Shown here piece after piece: positions 1-6,608 of a stretch of 6,608 nt of DNA. Under the pieces are notes generated by a model. It searched no databases, was not told the DNA's origin, and saw nothing but the letters and a program-made list of their open reading frames with translations. A program made the translations under genes and the position numbers. The stretch comes from Methylocystaceae bacterium (GTDB taxonomy: Bacteria > Pseudomonadota > Alphaproteobacteria > Rhizobiales > Beijerinckiaceae), in assembly GCA_003152255.1 (NCBI GenBank), contig PLZT01000328.1, positions 1-6,608 of the forward strand, read 5' to 3'. The first letter of the stretch is position 1; every line of letters begins with the position of its first letter.

Positions 1-1
1 C

Positions 2-487
2 GCGCAGGGCGTCGCTGGCCAGGCGATCAACGCCTTGGGAATCGTCAATGCGTTCGGATTGCCGCCGCTCACCGGCAACGCCTCGTCGAACCCCACAAAT
101 TCGCTGACGAGCTTCAAGGCCTCGGCGGCCTATGTCTGGGATCATACGATCAGCGGCACGGTCGGCTATTTCAGCGTGCGCGGCACGGCGGACGGGACGC
201 TGTATGGCAACGCTCTTCTGGGCCTGTCCGGTCCCTCCGCCTATGGCTCGCCGGACGGCAAGGGGCTGATCTTCGACATCGCCTATATGCCCTTCAGCAA
301 GGGCAGTCCGGGCCTCTATCCGTGGGCCAACGCCAAGATCGGCCTGTCCTATACGCATTACCTTCAGCTCTATGGCGGGACGACCAATTTCGACGGGCTC
401 GGAACCTATTACAACGGCAGCAGCTGGCGCTCGCACACGGCGACCGACAACAACACGCTGTTCCTCTATACCTGGATCGCGTTCTAA
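2..487 (+). CDS. Outer-membrane beta-barrel protein, C-terminal part (5' end outside window)
   Basis: The reading frame is open from the left edge and stops with TAA at 485-487, so about 161 C-terminal residues are visible and the start is missing. The protein shows alternating, aromatic-rich amphipathic stretches that look like transmembrane beta-strands (around SFKASAAYVWDHTISG, GLIFDIAYMPF, AKIGLSYTHYLQLYG). It ends in a terminal strand finishing ...FLYTWIAF. A C-terminal Phe on a strand with alternating hydrophobic residues is the usual recognition signal for the BAM outer-membrane assembly machinery. From memory, rhizobial and other proteobacterial outer-membrane proteins with a DNNTLFL-x-x-W-x-AF ending exist, some annotated as cytochrome-c-associated; no haem motif is visible here because the N-terminus is missing. 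Role in transport or electron transfer is unknown. Confidence is high for a real coding region and moderate for the barrel assignment. Confidence 0.8.
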   Translation, partial: AQGVAGQAINALGIVNAFGLPPLTGNASSNPTNSLTSFKASAAYVWDHTISGTVGYFSVRGTADGTLYGNALLGLSGPSAYGSPDGKGLIFDIAYMPFSKGSPGLYPWANAKIGLSYTHYLQLYGGTTNFDGLGTYYNGSSWRSHTATDNNTLFLYTWIAF

Positions 488-495
488 ACATCGAC

Positions 496-523
496 CGGCG
501 CCTCGATCAAAGTCGAGGCGCCG
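496..523. terminator. Hairpin between convergent genes, probable bidirectional terminator
   Basis: A perfect 11-bp inverted repeat (CGGCGCCTCGA at 496-506 and TCGAGGCGCCG at 513-523) surrounds a 6-nt loop. It sits 8 nt after the stop of the barrel gene and 6 nt before the stop codon of the oppositely oriented pirin gene. There is no long T-run on either side, so termination efficiency is uncertain. Position and stem strength make a shared terminator the most likely role. Confidence 0.7.
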
Positions 524-529
524 TCGCGC

Positions 530-1402
530 TCAAAACGGCGCGCCGTCAAGCGTTCCCATGCGGCCTTCCACATAGTCCGAATAGGCCTGTTCGATCGCCT
601 CGGTCGAATTGAACACATAGGGGCCGCGAAACACCAGCGGGCGCGGCGCGCGCTCGCCGCCGAGCAGCAGCACCTCCGTCGGCGTCGCGCCGGGATTGCC
701 CAGCATCACCATGGGCGCCGGATGCAGCAAGGCCAGTTCGGCGCGTGATGCTTCCTCGCCGCCGATGGCGGCCGCGCCCGCCAGCACGTAAATCGCCATT
801 TCGTGCGAGGGGTTCAGAGGCAGCGTCACGGAGGCGCCGGGCGCCAGCGCGATATGGATGAGCTGGGCCGGCCCTTGCAGCCGGATCGGCCCCGGCTCCC
901 CGAAATACAGCGCCAATTCCCCGCTGAGCAGTTTTATATGCGCGCCGGGCAGGGCGATTTGCGGCACGTTGTCCGCCGCGACCGAACCATAGCGCGGGGG
1001 CTGATCGTCGAAGGCGGCGGGCTGGCGCGTCCACAACTGCACGGTGTTCATCAGCCCATCGGCGCCGCCGCGCAGGATTTCCGCGTGAAGCATGCCGCGC
1101 CCCGAACTGATCCATTGCGCCCCACCCGCCGTGATCGTGCCCGCGTTGCCGAAGGAATCGCGGTGATCGTTCTCGCCGGACAGTAGATAGGAAATCACCT
1201 CTATCCCCGCGTGCGGATGCGCCGGCACGCCTTCGGGCGGCGGCTTGCCCGGACCGAACTGATCCAGAAACACGAAGGGTCCAACCGCCTCCAGCGCGGG
1301 CGTCGGCAGCGAGCGCAGCACCGCCACGCCGGCGCCGACGCTCGCTTGCGAGGGCGCGATCTTGAGCGCGATGGTCTTGTCCGCGACGTCGGTTATGGTC
1401 AT
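530..1402 (-). CDS. Pirin family protein (bicupin, quercetinase-like)
   Basis: A 290-residue protein of the pirin/YhhW bicupin family, normal in length for the family. The N-terminal cupin carries HPHAG at residues 62-66 and GMLHAEI at 103-109. This gives His62, His64, His106 and Glu108, the expected four metal ligands (His-x-His, then His-x-Glu) seen in human pirin and E. coli YhhW. The C-terminal half is the second, metal-free pirin-C cupin. Family members are cytosolic; some have quercetin 2,3-dioxygenase activity and others act as redox-sensing regulators, so the substrate cannot be read from sequence. I chose the ATG at 1400-1402 because a GGAG ribosome site lies 7 nt upstream (1410-1413). 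The open frame extends 71 codons further, but that part is Arg/Lys-rich and overlaps the neighbouring gene. The gene lies 100 nt downstream of the 185-residue exported protein on the same strand and may be co-transcribed. Confidence 0.95.
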   Translation of the reverse strand: MTITDVADKTIALKIAPSQASVGAGVAVLRSLPTPALEAVGPFVFLDQFGPGKPPPEGVPAHPHAGIEVISYLLSGENDHRDSFGNAGTITAGGAQWISSGRGMLHAEILRGGADGLMNTVQLWTRQPAAFDDQPPRYGSVAADNVPQIALPGAHIKLLSGELALYFGEPGPIRLQGPAQLIHIALAPGASVTLPLNPSHEMAIYVLAGAAAIGGEEASRAELALLHPAPMVMLGNPGATPTEVLLLGGERAPRPLVFRGPYVFNSTEAIEQAYSDYVEGRMGTLDGAPF

Positions 1403-1502
1403 AATTGGTCTCCACCAGTCATCGCGGGAAACATAGGGCGCGCCGCGCGGCGGCGCCACCGGGCTTGCGGCGCTTGCTTGGCGCTTCACGCGAGTTGGGG
1501 TT

Positions 1503-2060
1503 TTACGGCGTCGCGGTCGCGGCTTCCTGGCTCGCCGCCGGTTTATCTTTCGCGATATGCGAGCGGAAATCCTTTTTCCACAGCGTCGACCAGTCGATGC
1601 GCGAGGCGATGTCACAGCCCGCGGGCTCGCTGATCACGACCATCATGCTGTCGAGTTCGTATGACGAGAGGCCCAATAATTCTAGGGCGCGCTCTTTGAG
1701 ATGCTCGATGAACATGCCTCGGCTCTCTTCCCGCTGCGTGATCAGCCCGAGGTAGGCGAAGAATCGAGCGTCGCCGGCGGCGCCAATATGATCGAAAAGC
1801 GTCTTCGCCTGGAAATTGCGGGAAGTGGGGGAGACTTGAAGCGGGCGGTCGCAAGTTGGCGTGTCGAAAACCATCGGGTTGAGGAGTTCGCCGTCGACGT
1901 CGATGGTTCGCTTGAAGGAAAAACCGCGGCTGGTCATGAAATTCATGACCGCTTCGTCGATATGCACGTTCTCCCCGACGTCGTTTTGCGAAGTCGCCTT
2001 TATCGCGGCCGAGCACAGCAGCAAGGCCAGCAAGAGCCCCCGGACAAGCCAGCTATTCAT
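1503..2060 (-). CDS. Exported protein of unknown function, coupled to the exosortase gene
   Basis: This 185-residue protein starts with a hydrophobic signal sequence (residues about 5-20, LVRGLLLALLLCSAAIKA), so it is secreted to the periplasm or anchored by that segment. I do not recognise a named domain. Two cysteines in the mature region, Cys70 in FDTPTCDRP and Cys149 in SEPAGCDIA, flank the middle of the protein and could form a disulfide; the C-terminus continues IDWSTLWKKDF and a low-complexity Lys/Ala/Thr tail. Its ATG overlaps the last 8 nt of the exosortase gene (2053-2060) and has no Shine-Dalgarno of its own, which points to translational coupling and joint function. Exosortases are often paired with an accessory exported protein such as EpsI. 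This protein occupies that position, but I do not see a convincing EpsI signature, so the accessory role is inference from context. Confidence 0.85.
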   Translation of the reverse strand: MNSWLVRGLLLALLLCSAAIKATSQNDVGENVHIDEAVMNFMTSRGFSFKRTIDVDGELLNPMVFDTPTCDRPLQVSPTSRNFQAKTLFDHIGAAGDARFFAYLGLITQREESRGMFIEHLKERALELLGLSSYELDSMMVVISEPAGCDIASRIDWSTLWKKDFRSHIAKDKPAASQEAATATP

Positions 2061-2913
2061 GCTTCGCGCCGTCGATTGAAGCCCCCCACGCGCAGATCGC
2101 CGCGATGACGAACGACGCGGTCACGGCGAATATCTGGGCTCCGGCGCCATCGTGCCAATAGGCGAAGCTCTCGCGACCGAGCGAAATCGCATAAAGGCGC
2201 GCCGCGTTGAGCGCGATCATCGCGAGACAGGCCGCCGCGCCGAACTTGAAATCCGACCTGATGAATGTCGGCCGATGCAGTTTCGTCAAGGAAATCCAGC
2301 AAAGCGCCGCGAGCGAAATATTGTGAAAGGAAGAACAGTCGTTATAAATTCCGACCGTGAAACCTTGGGTCGAAATGACGTTTTCATGCCAGTCGAACCC
2401 GCCTCGCGTCAGTTTGAGGGCGACGCCGACGAGCGCGGCGTCGGCGCGCAGAAGATAGACGGTGAACAGACTAAATAACGTTGGGCCCCAAAGGGATTGC
2501 ACGGACAGAGCCCCGAGGACCGCGGCTCCCGCGCGGCCGTTCGATCCTTTTTCATTCCCCGCGTAGATATAGAGGGCCGCGAGCGTCGCCGCGATCCAGG
2601 TCGCCTTGCCGCTCGGCAGAAGATCGATCGCGCCGACAACGCCCGCCACCCAAAAGTCTCGGCGCGACGGGGGGGCGGACGATGTTTGAAGATAGAGCAA
2701 TCGCAGAACCGCGAACCAGCCAAGTATCTGGAATGCGCCGATACTCTCGAGACTGAGGGCCGTCGTGCCCCCATGTGTCATGCTTTGGGCGAAGGCCGAG
2801 GCGCAAAGAATCGACGCAAGCCAGATGAAAAGCTCTCGCCGCGAAAATTGGGCGCCGGCGTCGGCGATCGAGCCCATTCGGGTTGCATCCTCGAGCATAT
2901 GCATCGATCCCAT
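2053..2913 (-). CDS. Exosortase/archaeosortase family protein (membrane cysteine protease-transpeptidase)
   Basis: A 286-residue polytopic membrane protein with about seven or eight hydrophobic segments from residue 28 to 278. The family signature is in the C-terminal half: Cys193 in IYNDCSSFHNISLA, Arg239 in ALNAARLYA and His254 in YWHDGAGAQIF. The Cys, then Asn-x-x-Arg, then His about 15 residues later is the arrangement proposed as the catalytic triad of exosortases (EpsH/XrtA-like). These inner-membrane enzymes recognise a C-terminal tripartite tail (short motif, hydrophobic segment, basic cluster) and cleave or transfer the substrate. The start is uncertain. ATG at 2913 has no clear ribosome site, and in-frame ATGs at 2898 (GGGA 9 nt upstream) and 2877 (GAGG 11 nt upstream) are alternatives that do not affect the membrane domain. 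No glycosyltransferase or polysaccharide genes are nearby, unlike classic EPS-linked exosortases. Two putative substrates lie just upstream on the same strand. Confidence 0.85.
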   Translation of the reverse strand: MGSMHMLEDATRMGSIADAGAQFSRRELFIWLASILCASAFAQSMTHGGTTALSLESIGAFQILGWFAVLRLLYLQTSSAPPSRRDFWVAGVVGAIDLLPSGKATWIAATLAALYIYAGNEKGSNGRAGAAVLGALSVQSLWGPTLFSLFTVYLLRADAALVGVALKLTRGGFDWHENVISTQGFTVGIYNDCSSFHNISLAALCWISLTKLHRPTFIRSDFKFGAAACLAMIALNAARLYAISLGRESFAYWHDGAGAQIFAVTASFVIAAICAWGASIDGAKHE

Positions 2914-2920
2914 GGGCGAT

Positions 2921-2934
2921 TAGCGATATCGCTA
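2921..2934. promoter_or_regulatory. Perfect 14-bp palindrome in the exosortase 5' leader, possible operator
   Basis: TAGCGATATCGCTA is its own reverse complement and ends 7 bp before the most upstream exosortase ATG. A dyad of this length placed between promoter and start is typical of a dimeric repressor site, and as RNA it could also fold near the start codon. The binding protein is unknown. Confidence 0.4.
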
Positions 2935-3112
2935 CCCAATGCATGAAAAGAAATTTCCGCGCAATAAAGAGGGGACGAAAAACCGCCAGTTTTCTTAAAA
3001 TTTTGTGGATGTGTTGATTTCGTCGCGGACATGTGGCCGAACCAAGCGTCTTTGTTGCTCATTTTGGCGAAATGCAAATTCAGGAGCGCGATGGCCGCGA
3101 ACTCCATGGTCT

Positions 3113-3129
3113 CGCCGTGTGTCACGGCG
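3113..3129. repeat. Perfect 7-bp inverted repeat with 3-nt spacer
   Basis: CGCCGTG (3113-3119) and CACGGCG (3123-3129) flank TGT. It lies between the micro-gene and the exosortase gene. No T-run follows on the minus strand, so a factor-independent terminator in that direction is doubtful; on the plus strand a TTTGGTTT tract follows but no plus-strand gene is present. It may be a protein-binding dyad or an RNA-stabilising hairpin in a minus-strand read-through transcript. Confidence 0.35.
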
Positions 3130-3217
3130 TTTGGTTTCGCGATTTCACACGAATCGGAAGCAATGTTGTGCCGCGCATGGTGACAGGCGCCCGATCTCTC
3201 GCAAAACTCCCGATCGT

Positions 3218-3237
3218 GAAACCTCGGGGAAGGTTTC
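3218..3237 (-). terminator. Hairpin after micro-gene 1, possible terminator
   Basis: A 7-bp stem (GAAACCT at 3218-3224 with AGGTTTC at 3231-3237) and 6-nt loop lie 8 nt downstream of the micro-gene 1 stop codon. A short GTTTTGC tract follows about 11-14 nt later on the minus strand rather than immediately, so it may be only a partial terminator, allowing read-through toward the exosortase gene. Confidence 0.4.
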
Positions 3238-3245
3238 TCGACCGC

Positions 3246-3413
3246 TTACTTCTTCTTGAAGAAACGGGCTCCAAGCAACGCCCCGCCAACCGCGACCGCG
3301 GCGGGAATACCCAGGCCCAACAGCGGCGCCGGGCCTTTGCAGCCGAGGGCGCATTGAGCGAACACTGGCGTCGCCGCGATTACGAAACAAGCCGCTCCAA
3401 GAATTATACGCAT
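3246..3413 (-). CDS. Micro-protein 1 with signal peptide and exosortase-like C-terminal sorting tail
   Basis: A 55-residue protein. Residues 1-19 are a signal peptide (MRIILGAACF... ending VFA). Residues 20-27, QCALGCKG, form a tiny linker with Cys21 and Cys25. Residues 28-55 are the tail: PAPLLGLG, a hydrophobic segment (IPAAVAVGGALLG) and a basic end ARFFKKK. Motif plus membrane segment plus basic cluster is the plan of exosortase sorting signals such as PEP-CTERM, here with PAP instead of PEP. The two residues before Cys21 do not make a lipobox, so it is not an obvious lipoprotein. I chose the ATG at 3411-3413 because a GGAGAG ribosome site lies 6-8 nt upstream and the same site and start are conserved in micro-protein 2. 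A longer frame to 3497 would place the signal peptide internally. It lies 333 bp upstream of the exosortase gene on the same strand. No function is known; an inner-membrane two-helix micro-protein unrelated to sorting is the main alternative. Confidence 0.85.
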   Translation of the reverse strand: MRIILGAACFVIAATPVFAQCALGCKGPAPLLGLGIPAAVAVGGALLGARFFKKK

Positions 3414-3446
3414 ATCCGACTCTCCATCGCGACGCTCGTGCCGTTC

Positions 3447-3472
3447 TCTGGCTTGTATACAATCAAGCCAGA
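3447..3472. promoter_or_regulatory. 9-bp inverted repeat overlapping the micro-gene 1 promoter, possible operator
   Basis: TCTGGCTTG (3447-3455) and CAAGCCAGA (3464-3472) form a perfect dyad with an 8-bp spacer that covers the proposed -10 hexamer. In copy 2 only the CAAGCC arm is conserved, so the dyad is specific to micro-gene 1. It is a good candidate for a repressor site that would occlude RNA polymerase. Confidence 0.45.
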
Positions 3473-3481
3473 AAAGTGAAC
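3454..3481 (-). promoter_or_regulatory. Predicted promoter of micro-gene 1
   Basis: On the minus strand a -35-like GTTCAC (3476-3481) is separated by 16 bp from a -10-like TATACA (3454-3459), which ends about 40 nt before the start codon. Both elements and the spacing recur upstream of micro-gene 2 as GTTTAC and TAGACG, and the spacer GGCTTGATTG is identical. Conservation across the duplication, in a region otherwise diverged, is the main support. Confidence 0.5.
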
Positions 3482-3575
3482 GTCTCGCTAGCGCCAACTG
3501 GCCAATAGATCAGCTTGCGCTTTGAATTTGTGCGACCGAGTCACGATTTCGCGCCGCGCAAGCGTCGCCGTCGCC

Positions 3576-3592
3576 GTATTGCAAAGCAATAC
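3576..3592. promoter_or_regulatory. 17-bp dyad far upstream of micro-gene 1
   Basis: GTATTGC-AAA-GCAATAC is a perfect 7-bp inverted repeat about 163 bp upstream of the micro-gene 1 start. The corresponding part of copy 2 (around 4126-4137, GTTACAAAGTAC) is similar in sequence but keeps only a degraded dyad. It could be an activator or repressor site, or a hairpin ending an unseen transcript. Confidence 0.35.
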
Positions 3593-3728
3593 ATTTAGAT
3601 AACTCGTCGCCGCCGATCAGGAGGTTTACGCGCTTCTAGAAGCGCTGACGCGCGAGTGTTTCAAAGAAACTCCCGATCGCGAATATTTACCGAGGACCAG
3701 TAAGGGGCCTCGGAAGCGGCGTGTCGGG

Positions 3729-3751
3729 GCGCCTGATCTTGGATCGGGCGC
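3729..3751 (-). terminator. Hairpin after micro-gene 2, possible terminator
   Basis: GCGCCTGATC (3729-3738) and GATCGGGCGC (3742-3751) form a 10-bp stem with one imperfect pair and a 3-nt loop, 18 nt downstream of the micro-gene 2 stop. There is no T-run after it on the minus strand, so factor-independent termination is only possible, not clear. A second stem (3690-3713) follows. Confidence 0.4.
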
Positions 3752-3769
3752 GACCCTGAACTCGAACGC

Positions 3770-3943
3770 TCACTTCCTCTTTAGCAAGCGCGCTCCAAAT
3801 AACGCGCCGCCGACGGCGACCGCGGCGGGAAACCCTAGGCCCAATAGCGGAGCCGGGCCTTTACAGAGGAAGGAGGCGCACGGCCCCGCCCAAGCCGGCG
3901 CCGTGGCGAGGACGAAACAAACCGCTCCAAGAATCGCACGCAT
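3770..3943 (-). CDS. Micro-protein 2, paralogue of micro-protein 1, with exosortase-like sorting tail
   Basis: A 57-residue protein with the same plan as micro-protein 1. It has a signal peptide at residues 1-19 (ending APAWA), a linker GPCASFLCKG with Cys22 and Cys27, the motif PAPLLGLG (30-37), a hydrophobic segment, and the basic end ARLLKRK. From the second linker cysteine onward only a handful of positions differ from the paralogue. The linker between signal peptide and Cys differs in sequence and length (Cys-x4-Cys here, Cys-x3-Cys there). The ATG at 3941-3943 is chosen for its GGAGAG site, located as in the paralogue; the frame extends to 4000 without a better start. The tail is thus the most constrained part, as expected if it is recognised by the nearby exosortase. 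No function is known beyond that inference. Confidence 0.85.
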   Translation of the reverse strand: MRAILGAVCFVLATAPAWAGPCASFLCKGPAPLLGLGFPAAVAVGGALFGARLLKRK

Positions 3944-3987
3944 ATCGAACTCTCCTTCACTGCGCTTGCTCGCGCCGCGTTTTAACT

Positions 3988-4015
3988 CGTCTACAATCAA
4001 GCCTTAAACGTAAAC
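3988..4015 (-). promoter_or_regulatory. Predicted promoter of micro-gene 2
   Basis: Minus-strand GTTTAC (4010-4015) and TAGACG (3988-3993) with 16-bp spacing match the elements upstream of micro-gene 1. The -10 hexamer is poorer here, so this copy may be weaker or activator-dependent. Confidence 0.4.
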
Positions 4016-4019
4016 ATTG

Positions 4020-4037
4020 CGCCATCGCGAGATGGCG
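4020..4037. repeat. Perfect 7-bp inverted repeat upstream of the micro-gene 2 promoter
   Basis: CGCCATC (4020-4026) and GATGGCG (4031-4037) flank GCGA. The dyad begins 5 bp upstream of the proposed -35 hexamer, a position suited to an activator or repressor. Copy 1 has no equivalent of similar strength. Confidence 0.35.
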
Positions 4038-4057
4038 ACGGACCCGCTTGCGCCCCC

Positions 4058-4131
4058 AATTTGTGCAAGTAAGTTAATTTTGTTGCAGTTTCGCGCGGAT
4101 TGAACATCAGCTTTTGTCGCATTTTGTTACA
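4058..4131. promoter_or_regulatory. Cluster of TTTTGTYRCA-like elements
   Basis: ATTTTGTTGCA (4077-4087), CTTTTGTCGCA (4111-4121) and ATTTTGTTACA (4121-4131) are near-identical and in the same orientation; AATTTGTGCA (4058-4067) is a weaker fourth match, and only this one is conserved in copy 1. They lie 115-190 bp upstream of micro-gene 2 in an AT-rich segment. Start-to-start distances are 34 and 10 bp among the three good copies. They may be iterated binding sites for a regulator, or simply reflect local AT-rich bias. Confidence 0.35.
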
Positions 4132-4390
4132 AAGTACTTCATCGAGATAAGTCCTCGCCGGCATTGGCGATCCAGTCGATGGCTTGATCAAGACGAAATG
4201 CCAGCGGCGCGTTCCCGACGCGCTTGCGGCTCCGCTGAGCGGATAGGCGAATGACGTCATCCCTGAAAACCTGGCCATCACGCGCCGACGACCGACCGGC
4301 GCCGAAACGCTTCGCCATAGGCGTTGCTGAAGCGCGCGACGCTTGGCGGTGGTCGTTGCGTCGCGACTTCGCGCGTCCGAGCCGGCGACG
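4132..4390. other. Intergenic stretch between the duplication and the six-Cys gene
   Basis: Together with the upstream part of copy 2 this makes a gap of about 450 bp without a convincing gene. A minus-strand frame at 3997-4281 could encode 94 residues, but it lacks a ribosome site, overlaps the predicted micro-gene 2 promoter and resembles nothing I know. The remainder, 4282-4390, is GC-rich and I see no terminator or recognisable motif in it. Confidence 0.4.
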
Positions 4391-4759
4391 CTAGAAACAG
4401 TGATTGGCCTTGAGCTCGATCACCCAGGCGCCGCAGCTCTCGTGACGCCCCGGCCCCGACTGCTCTCTCACGCAGTTGTTGTAATTGTTTTCGATCGCGG
4501 CGCAGAGCGCGACCTTGGGATCGGCGACCGGAGGCGGCGCGCCCCCGCCGCGTTCGCCCTGGTATTCGCGTCGTTCGCGTTCCTCGTGCTCTTCATGCCG
4601 CATGTGCCGCAGACGTTCGCAGGCGCGCTCGTCCCCGCTTTCGCAAGCCTCGCGCAATTCATGCATATATTCTCGCCGCTCGCCCTCCTCCTGCGCGCGC
4701 GCGAGCGGAGCGGAGATCGCGAGAGCTAGTCCGGCGATAAGCAATAGCTTCGTTTTCAT
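4391..4759 (-). CDS. Small secreted six-cysteine protein of unknown function
   Basis: A 122-residue protein with a clear signal peptide (MKTKLLLIAGLALAISAPLARA, cleavage near residue 22). The mature part starts with a highly charged Glu/Arg/His-rich segment (residues 24-70) predicted helical, which contains REACESGDERACERL. That Cys-x-x-Gly-Asp-x-x-x-Cys spacing recalls Cys-bearing Sel1/Hcp-type helical repeats, but only one copy is present. A Gly/Pro linker (GGGAPPP, 71-77) leads to a C-terminal domain with Cys86, Cys96, Cys109 and Cys121. In total there are six mature cysteines (39, 47, 86, 96, 109, 121), an even number that suggests three disulfides in the periplasm. There is no lipobox and no sorting tail. 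The leader just before the ATG can form CTTCG-GGAAA-CGAAG, placing the purine-rich ribosome site in the loop. Divergent from tam. The function is not recognisable. Confidence 0.8.
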   Translation of the reverse strand: MKTKLLLIAGLALAISAPLARAQEEGERREYMHELREACESGDERACERLRHMRHEEHEERERREYQGERGGGAPPPVADPKVALCAAIENNYNNCVREQSGPGRHESCGAWVIELKANHCF

Positions 4760-4917
4760 AGCTTCGTTTCCCGAAGTTGGATGAGGCGAGGTCCTCCGAC
4801 GACTGGCGCGGAGCGGTGCTTAATATCCCGATTGTCCGTTAAGCGATAGCGCGCGGCCAAATCGATCCATTTCCTTGAACGCTCGACCTATCCTTCGCGT
4901 CAAACCTAGCCGGCGCG

Positions 4918-5091: not shown

Positions 5092-5862
5092 GTGGGCGAT
5101 TGGAATTCAGAACTTTATATGAAATTCGAGAGTGAGCGGACGCGGGCCGCGCGCGATCTTCTCGCTCAAGTTTCAGACATTAAGCCAAAAACCGTGTTCG
5201 ATCTTGGCTCCGGCCCCGGCAACAGCACGCAACTTCTGGTGGAAGCTTTTCCGGATGCGAAAGTCGTCGGCATCGACGATTCGCCAAACATGCTGGATGT
5301 CGCGCGCGCACGCGTTCCGGGCGCCCGATTCCTCAAGGAAGACATCGAGCGCTGGCGCCCCAGCGAACCGGCCGACCTCATCTTCGCCAATGCGACGCTG
5401 CATTTCGCGCTGGATCATTACGGGCTGATCAAGCGTCTCGCCGGCTGCCTCGCCGAGGGCGGCTGTCTCGCCGCGCAAATGCCCAACAATATGCAGGAGG
5501 TCTCGCACGCGCTGATGCGGATGATCGCGGCGGACGGCCCCTGGTCCGACCGGCTGGTGCCGATCGCCAAGACCAGAGCCGTGATCGGGCCGCTCGACGA
5601 ATATTACCGGCTGCTGCGGCCGCTCTGCTCGCGGCTGGACATTTGGCAGACCACTTATATCCATACGATCGACGGCGTGGACCGTATCGTCGAATGGTTC
5701 GAGGGGTCGGAACTGCGCCCGTTCCTGAAGCCGCTGTCCGAGCAAGAGCGCGAGACCTTTCTCGCGCGCTATCGCGAGGGGCTCACGCAATCCTATGCGC
5801 CGCAGCCCGATGGAACGGTTCTGCTGCCCTATCCGCGGCTGTTCCTGGTCGCGCAAAAGTAG
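5092..5862 (+). CDS. tam: Trans-aconitate 2-methyltransferase
   Basis: A 256-residue class I SAM-dependent methyltransferase that closely follows E. coli Tam over its full length. It has the N-terminal DWNSELYMKFESERTR segment, the SAM motif DLGSGPGNST (37-46), the acidic ribose-binding IDDSPNM (61-67), IFANATLHF (97-105), AQMPNN (128-133) and the C-terminal LPYPRLFLVAQK. Tam methyl-esterifies trans-aconitate, a spontaneous isomer of the TCA intermediate cis-aconitate that inhibits aconitase, and is cytosolic. The GTG start is fixed by the AGGAGG 7 nt upstream and by alignment of the N-terminus with Tam. The stop lies 9 nt before arsC, so the two genes form an operon. Nothing is truncated. 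Confidence in the family is very high; the exact substrate is inferred from overall similarity. Confidence 0.93.
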   Translation: MGDWNSELYMKFESERTRAARDLLAQVSDIKPKTVFDLGSGPGNSTQLLVEAFPDAKVVGIDDSPNMLDVARARVPGARFLKEDIERWRPSEPADLIFANATLHFALDHYGLIKRLAGCLAEGGCLAAQMPNNMQEVSHALMRMIAADGPWSDRLVPIAKTRAVIGPLDEYYRLLRPLCSRLDIWQTTYIHTIDGVDRIVEWFEGSELRPFLKPLSEQERETFLARYREGLTQSYAPQPDGTVLLPYPRLFLVAQK

Positions 5863-5871
5863 AAGGCCGAT

Positions 5872-6219
5872 ATGACCATCACCATCTATCACAACCCCGC
5901 CTGCGGAACGTCCCGCAATACGCTGGCGATGATCCGCCAGAGCGGCGCCGAGCCGGTTGTCGTCGAATATTTGAAAAACCCGCCGACGCGGGCGAGGCTG
6001 GTCGAGCTGCTGCGCAAAATGGGAATTTCCGCGCGCGAACTGCTGCGGCAGAGGGGGACGCCCTACGCCGAGCTCGGTCTCGCCGATCGCAAATGGAGCG
6101 AGGACGAGTTGATCGGCTTCATGCTCGAGCACCCCATTCTGCTCGAGCGGCCAATAGTCGAGACGCCGAAGGGCGCGCGGCTGTGCCGGCCGGCGGAGAA
6201 GGTGCTGGAGATTCTTTAA
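5872..6219 (+). CDS. arsC: Arsenate reductase, glutaredoxin-dependent ArsC type
   Basis: A 115-residue thioredoxin-fold protein that aligns from its first residues with plasmid R773 ArsC. It begins MTITIYHNPACGTSRNTL with the catalytic Cys11. The three arginines that bind and stabilise the arseno-intermediate are present as Arg59 (RELLR), Arg93 (LLERP) and Arg106 (RLCRP). The enzyme reduces arsenate to arsenite in the cytosol using glutathione and glutaredoxin. The protein stops at ...KVLEIL, about two dozen residues short of the R773 enzyme; many chromosomal homologues end here too, so this is not clearly a truncation. AGAAGG lies 5 nt before the ATG and overlaps the tam stop codon, supporting co-transcription. 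No arsR, arsB or acr3 is seen in the window, so arsenite export must be encoded elsewhere if this is a working resistance gene. Confidence 0.93.
   Translation: MTITIYHNPACGTSRNTLAMIRQSGAEPVVVEYLKNPPTRARLVELLRKMGISARELLRQRGTPYAELGLADRKWSEDELIGFMLEHPILLERPIVETPKGARLCRPAEKVLEIL

Positions 6220-6310: not shown

Positions 6311-6608
<298 letters not shown>

Follow-up and report, generated by a model that had tools for sequence, protein, structure and literature searches.

Two near payload-free candidate substrates and a coupled partner protein encoded beside an exosortase in a Methylocystaceae bacterium

What does an exosortase act on when its candidate substrates, encoded next to it, consist of little more than an export signal and a sorting signal? 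The question is raised by a 6,608-nucleotide stretch of DNA from a methanotroph-like Methylocystaceae bacterium (contig PLZT01000328.1, assembly GCA_003152255.1), which we call the window. An earlier interpretation made from the letters without database searches, here the sequence-only reading, had proposed that two paralogous micro-proteins of 55 and 57 residues, an exosortase with an intact Cys/Arg/His triad and a translationally coupled exported protein form a self-contained sorting locus. We located all of these genes as claimed, on the minus strand (Table 1). We think it probable that they form an exosortase system of the dedicated type, with two cognate substrates that carry next to no payload, and the sequence comparisons described below support the view that the micro-proteins are substrates.

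The enzyme belongs to the exosortase/archaeosortase family, passing narrowly the cut-offs of both PF09721 (26.2 bits against 25.7) and TIGR04178 (25 bits against 23). Cys193, Arg239 and His254, which we take to be the catalytic residues, are invariant across an exosortase alignment of 41 rows, the window row counted. The structure model of the enzyme consists mostly of long helices (predicted local distance difference test, pLDDT, 85; predicted template modelling score, pTM, 0.82) and predicts a multi-helix membrane protein.

Table 1. Features of the exosortase locus in the window
Feature	Position	Strand	Description
Micro-protein, 57 aa	3770..3943	-	Signal peptide, 10-residue spacer GPCASFLCKG, tail PAPLLGLGFPAAVAVGGALFGARLLKRK
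Micro-protein, 55 aa	3246..3413	-	Signal peptide, 8-residue spacer QCALGCKG, tail PAPLLGLGIPAAVAVGGALLGARFFKKK
Exosortase family protein, 286 aa	2053..2913	-	PF09721 and TIGR04178 above cut-off; Cys193/Arg239/His254
Exported partner, 185 aa	1503..2060	-	8-nt overlap with exosortase; Cys70 and Cys149 invariant in partner family
Tandem duplication, proximal unit	3237..3533	.	First copies of repeats D1-D3
Tandem duplication, distal unit	3761..4066	.	Second copies of repeats D1-D3; shared upstream block

To judge by their sequences, the two micro-proteins are paralogues that arose by tandem duplication, upstream regions included. The duplicated units contain direct repeats of 113 and 70 nt, which are 81% and 79% identical and spaced 524 and 530 bp apart, and the upstream regions of both micro-genes are similar. 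Neither micro-protein matched any Pfam or NCBIfam model at E≤1. A search of protein databases gave 57 candidates, 53 of which were micro-protein relatives (weakest E 1.1e-11), and with the two micro-proteins of the window these make up the set of 55 on which all layout statistics are based. The order of parts was fixed throughout the set: a 19-residue signal peptide, a spacer of 6-14 residues and a 28-residue tail. Pairwise identity was 0.68 in the signal peptide and 0.90 in the tail, and only 0.16 in the spacer, computed without its last three residues; there were 49 distinct spacers and 23 distinct tails. The spacer contained at least two Cys residues in 52/55 micro-proteins, and a Cys stood three residues ahead of PAP in 54/55. 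At positions -3/-1 of the presumed signal-peptidase cut we found small residues in every case (A/A in 50, A/G in 4 and V/A in 1).

Signal peptide, motif, helix and basic end were assigned by a sequence rule, not by a signal-peptide program, and by this rule the micro-proteins have the predicted PEP-CTERM-type layout, with a signal peptide at one end and motif, helix and basic end at the other. The sequence-only reading had described the motif as a variant, and in part this stood: it is PAP in 54/55 micro-proteins, PTP in the remaining one (P0002) and PEP in none, but similar PxP tails are found elsewhere in the class. The 6-14 residues that separate the two signals leave hardly anything to sort.

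The locus closest to the window, L001, comes from a Methylocystaceae bog metagenome-assembled genome, G001, and is 93.4% identical to window positions 1-4830. In its proximal micro-protein copy (2194-2358), ACG stands at the position of the window's ATG start; this could be an inactive copy, an unusual start or an assembly error. A micro-protein profile matched G001 at the two micro-protein loci only, and a tail profile found the two micro-proteins clearly, plus a third match at E 0.03. Few targets encoded beside the enzyme, as seen in the window and in G001, mark a dedicated sorting system. The many dissimilar targets per genome that are a trait of PEP-CTERM systems were not found, there being two clear tail matches in G001.

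We searched for this pairing in other genomes. Among 39 genomes of the genus, the micro-protein was convincing in G001 only, six further genomes giving weak matches (E 0.006-0.093). Two of the weak matches were 83-aa exported proteins without the tail (G218 and G219), one lay inside a 250-aa frame (G090), and the rest were in G018, G216 and G228. One of 397 genomes of the order had a convincing micro-protein, with at most 16 candidates scored per genome; two further matches, in G481 and G405, were rejected as parts of long open frames (560 and 773 aa, respectively), the G405 reading possibly being on the wrong strand. A single-sequence search of 199 genomes of the family returned G001 and five weak matches (E 0.002-0.007). 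Exosortases matching the profile were present in 4/39 genus genomes, and the subtype of the window enzyme only in G001 (404 bits; next best 113). The sequence-only reading had proposed to test whether micro-protein and enzyme subtype occur together. Both were strong in G001 and in no other of the 39 genus genomes. The other genomes searched yielded no convincing micro-protein, so that the refuting observation named in that reading did not turn up, in a comparison with a single positive genome. An indirect sign of pairing came from source contigs of equal size (60128, 203663, 68115, 43671 and 15515), which are common to micro-protein and exosortase clusters and cover 6/53 of the micro-protein clusters.

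G001 also harbors a second, different exosortase, at locus L051 (contig C291, 1643-3484), together with a tandem pair of micro-proteins (54 and 52 aa). Their tails, PAPEIG and AAPEIG, differ from those of the window, and the L051 exosortase has its own coupled partner.

Evidence that such tails belong to substrates came from the two other exosortase relatives that score best among those with genome context, at loci L097 and L098. The L097 exosortase (282 bits) adjoins a 230-aa exported protein with the tail AAPAPSIGAGIPSMLAIGAMLLGT... and the C-terminal sequence AAPAPSIGAGIPSMLAIGAMLLGTKLQARWRRS. The L098 exosortase (269 bits) adjoins a 313-aa exported protein with the tail GAPAPLIGASIPSFLILGGLLL... 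and the C-terminal sequence GAPAPLIGASIPSFLILGGLLLALWLRRTGVRRI, and this protein carries a choice-of-anchor A domain (TIGR04215). The presence of a similar tail on full-size exported proteins beside these enzymes speaks for the micro-proteins being real substrates with hardly any payload. The proposal that they are dedicated substrates gained from these tails and from the pairing confined to G001, but it sits uneasily with proteins that hold almost nothing to sort.

The same lack of payload would suit a different role, in which the micro-proteins are not consumed but bind the exosortase as small membrane subunits or pseudo-substrates and stabilise or regulate it. We regard this as unlikely. 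It would account for the entire 28-residue tail being nearly frozen, helix included, and other exosortases also adjoin micro-proteins; however, a subunit would have no need of a spacer that varies yet keeps a Cys pair, and two further points count against it: related enzymes adjoin full-size exported proteins with a similar tail, and the copies are duplicated, each with its own upstream region.

We built an exosortase tree from 59 of the 62 exosortases collected, those scoring at least 70 bits, and the window enzyme fell in a nine-row clade (support 99/94). Within this clade, locus L042 carries four tandem micro-proteins (9213-10128) of ~54-59 aa with a PGPV/PAPV tail, and L100 carries one. 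L041 has one if an internal Met is taken as the start, and this one falls outside the strict rule given below. A 57-aa candidate at L127 lies on the opposite strand and is without a clear signal peptide, and at L099 no credible micro-protein was found within 4 kb of the exosortase.

Payload-bearing proteins at related loci, together with a spacer identity of just 0.16 and the lack of an ATG in the proximal G001 copy, could also suggest that the micro-proteins are drifting relics, substrates whose payload has been lost. This is quite improbable in our view, as drift fits poorly with a signal-peptidase site in 55/55, a tail identity of 0.90 and the Cys at -3 of PAP in 54/55, and it fits poorly with the 53 micro-protein clusters in public data and the recurrence of micro-proteins at L041, L042 and L100 in the same clade.

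We then asked how often alphaproteobacterial exosortases adjoin micro-substrates, using a strict rule: an open reading frame (ORF) of 42-110 aa with a signal-like start, PxP, an uncharged helix and a basic end. The first 22 loci, the window and L001 among them, served to shape the rule, which was applied unchanged to 40 later loci. In all, 60 exosortase stretches were taken and 14 matches were left out (G285, G346, G573, one of G201 and ten weak ones). Around the first 22 exosortases there were 13 strict-rule ORFs within 2.5 kb, in 9/22 loci and all on the enzyme strand, whereas the outer 188 kb contained none and 6,284 kb of order-1 Markov sequence contained 1. The 40 later loci gave 6 within 2.5 kb (6/40 loci, 5 on the enzyme strand), versus none in 349 kb further out (near versus far, p 0.002) and none in 5,786 kb of Markov sequence; several of these matches had longer spacers, some of them Gly-rich. 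Over all 62 loci, 19 strict-rule ORFs lay near an exosortase, in 15/62 loci, versus 0 in 537 kb further out. The idea that the locus is unusual for its small adjacent substrates has to be given up, the same arrangement being present at other exosortases. It is very hard to believe that the micro-proteins are unrelated to the exosortase, for example small hydrophobic membrane peptides of the toxin-antitoxin type: they are short and hydrophobic, with a basic end and tandem copies, but they carry a signal-peptidase site and a PxP motif, ORFs of this kind were found near exosortases and not far from them, and the genome in which they were found, and not convincingly elsewhere, is the one with the window enzyme subtype.

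Tails of the PxPxxGxG[LI]P type gave 6 matches in G451, some in frames longer than 230 aa, and 5 in G1083, while 7 of the 17 genomes searched had none. The 75-aa tail-bearing protein of L048 passes the LPXTG anchor cut-off only.

Several observations weigh against a dedicated system with two cognate substrates. The tail profile (A6) found nothing in G992, the genome of L097, and gave only E 0.01 in G038, that of L098, so the likeness of the L097 and L098 tails rests on a short alignment (31-34% identity). The tree grouped the window enzyme with L097 and L098 at weak support (85/36). The strict rule found nothing within 2.5 kb of the exosortase in 47/62 loci, and 47/53 micro-protein clusters share no contig size with an exosortase cluster (a doubtful coincidence at 1176 was omitted). 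The pairing of tail and enzyme rests on one whole genome, G001, and in this one genome with micro-proteins the proximal copy has ACG for ATG. A near-empty spacer fits ordinary sorting poorly, and the biochemical steps, including cleavage, product and localisation, are ones that we infer.

The fourth gene of the locus had been described simply as a translationally coupled exported protein. The coupling is there, by way of the 8-nt overlap, but the protein is also a member of a conserved family of exosortase partners. We looked at the exosortase stop for an ORF of 120-260 aa that begins with a hydrophobic segment, a positional rule without a random-gene control, and found a candidate at 51/61 loci, the window excluded. 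In the alignment of 52 partners, two Cys residues were the sole invariant columns. BLASTP of the window partner against the partners of L097 (6754-7290, minus strand), L041 and L127 (7317-7829, minus strand) gave single-comparison E values of 1e-16, 4e-16 and 3e-17. A leave-one-locus-out profile ranked the coupled ORF first at 50/50 loci (E≤0.001); a single joint alignment supplied the rows, and some of the loci are close kin, both of which favour the test.

The partner was present in 16/17 exosortase-positive genomes (those with a match at E≤1e-10) versus 0/63 genomes without an exosortase match (Fisher p 6e-16). Most of the positive genomes had contributed profile rows; of the five others (G148, G285, G346, G354 and G573), 4/5 match. 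All 19 partner matches were no more than 160 bp away from an exosortase match. When the window partner family was compared by profile with five other partners, the probability was 46 and the E value 2e-4; the case for a family is built on the invariant Cys columns, the BLASTP comparisons, the leave-one-out ranking and the genome counts. By these sequence criteria we place the 185-aa protein in a coupled alphaproteobacterial exosortase-partner family defined here, which appears to be unnamed so far. The protein was not matched to EpsI or to any other named exosortase-associated family, and a remote relation is possible.

EpsI is a protein encoded next to an exosortase. Proteins encoded beside exosortases are also mentioned, in the available part of PMC12188702, for a CrtB case in Nostoc and for the XrtF partner in Flavobacterium, so this kind of partner is known. 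The window partner resembles the CrtB-associated protein, the XrtF partner and EpsI in being encoded next to an exosortase. Unlike these named neighbours, its family has no match to Pfam or NCBIfam at E≤0.01 (0/52 members).

We compared the locus with known sorting systems as they are described in the accessible portions of the respective papers. Like PEP-CTERM/EpsH sorting (PMC1569441, Haft et al. 2006), it combines an exosortase-family enzyme with substrates that have a signal peptide, Pro-x-Pro, a helix and a basic end. It differs from PEP-CTERM/EpsH in that the motif is PAP, not PEP, the substrates match no family model and carry almost no payload, the close genome G001 has two targets against a median of eight, and no exopolysaccharide gene was recognised nearby. 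With the dedicated rhombosortase/GlyGly-CTERM systems (PMC3237569) it shares an enzyme and few targets side by side, although the enzyme is of another family and there are two paralogous micro-targets versus one full-size target. A Cys kept near the membrane helix of a tripartite tail is also found in MYXO-CTERM/myxosortase (PMC11980579), but myxosortase is of the CAAX-protease (CPBP) kind whereas the window enzyme is an exosortase, and the substrates of myxosortase, TraA for instance, are receptors rather than near-empty peptides. In the exosortase literature, mostly the open literature and in excerpt, we found no description of micro-substrates or of the partner family. Our sequence comparisons support as new a putatively dedicated, near payload-free system of the exosortase/PEP-CTERM type with an unnamed partner family.

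The sequence-only reading had also put the locus among those without exopolysaccharide genes, and a Pfam scan of 9 window and 10 L001 proteins, some of which match nothing, recognised no exopolysaccharide enzyme. Pfam names among the neighbours in the window and L001 included pirin, trans-aconitate methyltransferase-like, arsenate reductase, fumarase, NepR, PhyR, PTS IIA, hibernation factor and sigma-54. In the window, pirin lies at 530-1402 (minus strand), trans-aconitate 2-methyltransferase at 5092-5862 (plus), arsenate reductase at 5872-6219 (plus) and a bacterial RNase P RNA at 6313-6608 (minus). At 4391-4759 (minus) there is a 122-aa exported protein, Glu/Arg-rich, with several Cys residues and without a C-terminal tail; it is kept in L001 at 864-1217 and matched no Pfam or NCBIfam model. 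Methylocystis is mentioned in two database names.

For a dedicated system with two cognate substrates, we modelled the mechanism on the PEP-CTERM scheme (PMC1569441) and on MYXO-CTERM processing (PMC11980579), each as outlined in the part of the paper available. The signal peptide would export the micro-protein and would be cut off after A-x-A. The remaining ~36 aa would be held in the inner membrane by the C-terminal helix and, from the layout, the variable Cys-bearing 6-14 residues and PAP would lie outside and the basic end inside. By homology, the exosortase, probably with its co-translated partner, would recognise the PAPLLGLG[IF]P tail, and the Cys193/Arg239/His254 enzyme would carry out cleavage or transfer at the motif, as proposed for other exosortases. 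Least certain is the final step, in which a peptide of ~10 residues with a Cys pair may be released, or anchored at its new C-terminus.

Since the micro-proteins are almost only export and sorting signals, the task of the enzyme may be the maturation of small peptides and not the sorting of ordinary surface proteins. The system may exist to make a short cystine peptide, or else the micro-proteins may serve the enzyme. More specifically, exosortase and signal peptidase might together cut the 55-57-aa precursor down to ~10 residues, giving a peptide that is secreted or anchored to a lipid and contains a cystine or a metal bound by Cys. Its sequence would diversify fast while the recognition tail is frozen. 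We offer this tentatively, as a possibility short of a likelihood. If it is true, a protein-sorting enzyme would here be the basis of a system for a peptide signal, a metal binder or an effector, and the Cys-paired partner protein would be a second subunit.

The cleavage site, product and partners of exosortases have so far been poorly defined. One enzyme, a coupled partner and two near-empty candidate substrates are nearly the smallest set one could use for reconstitution, and the predicted product is small enough to be read out by mass spectrometry. The full-size proteins with similar tails beside related enzymes offer a natural contrast between loci that have a payload and loci that do not. 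The two-Cys partner family is a candidate for a general second component of exosortases.

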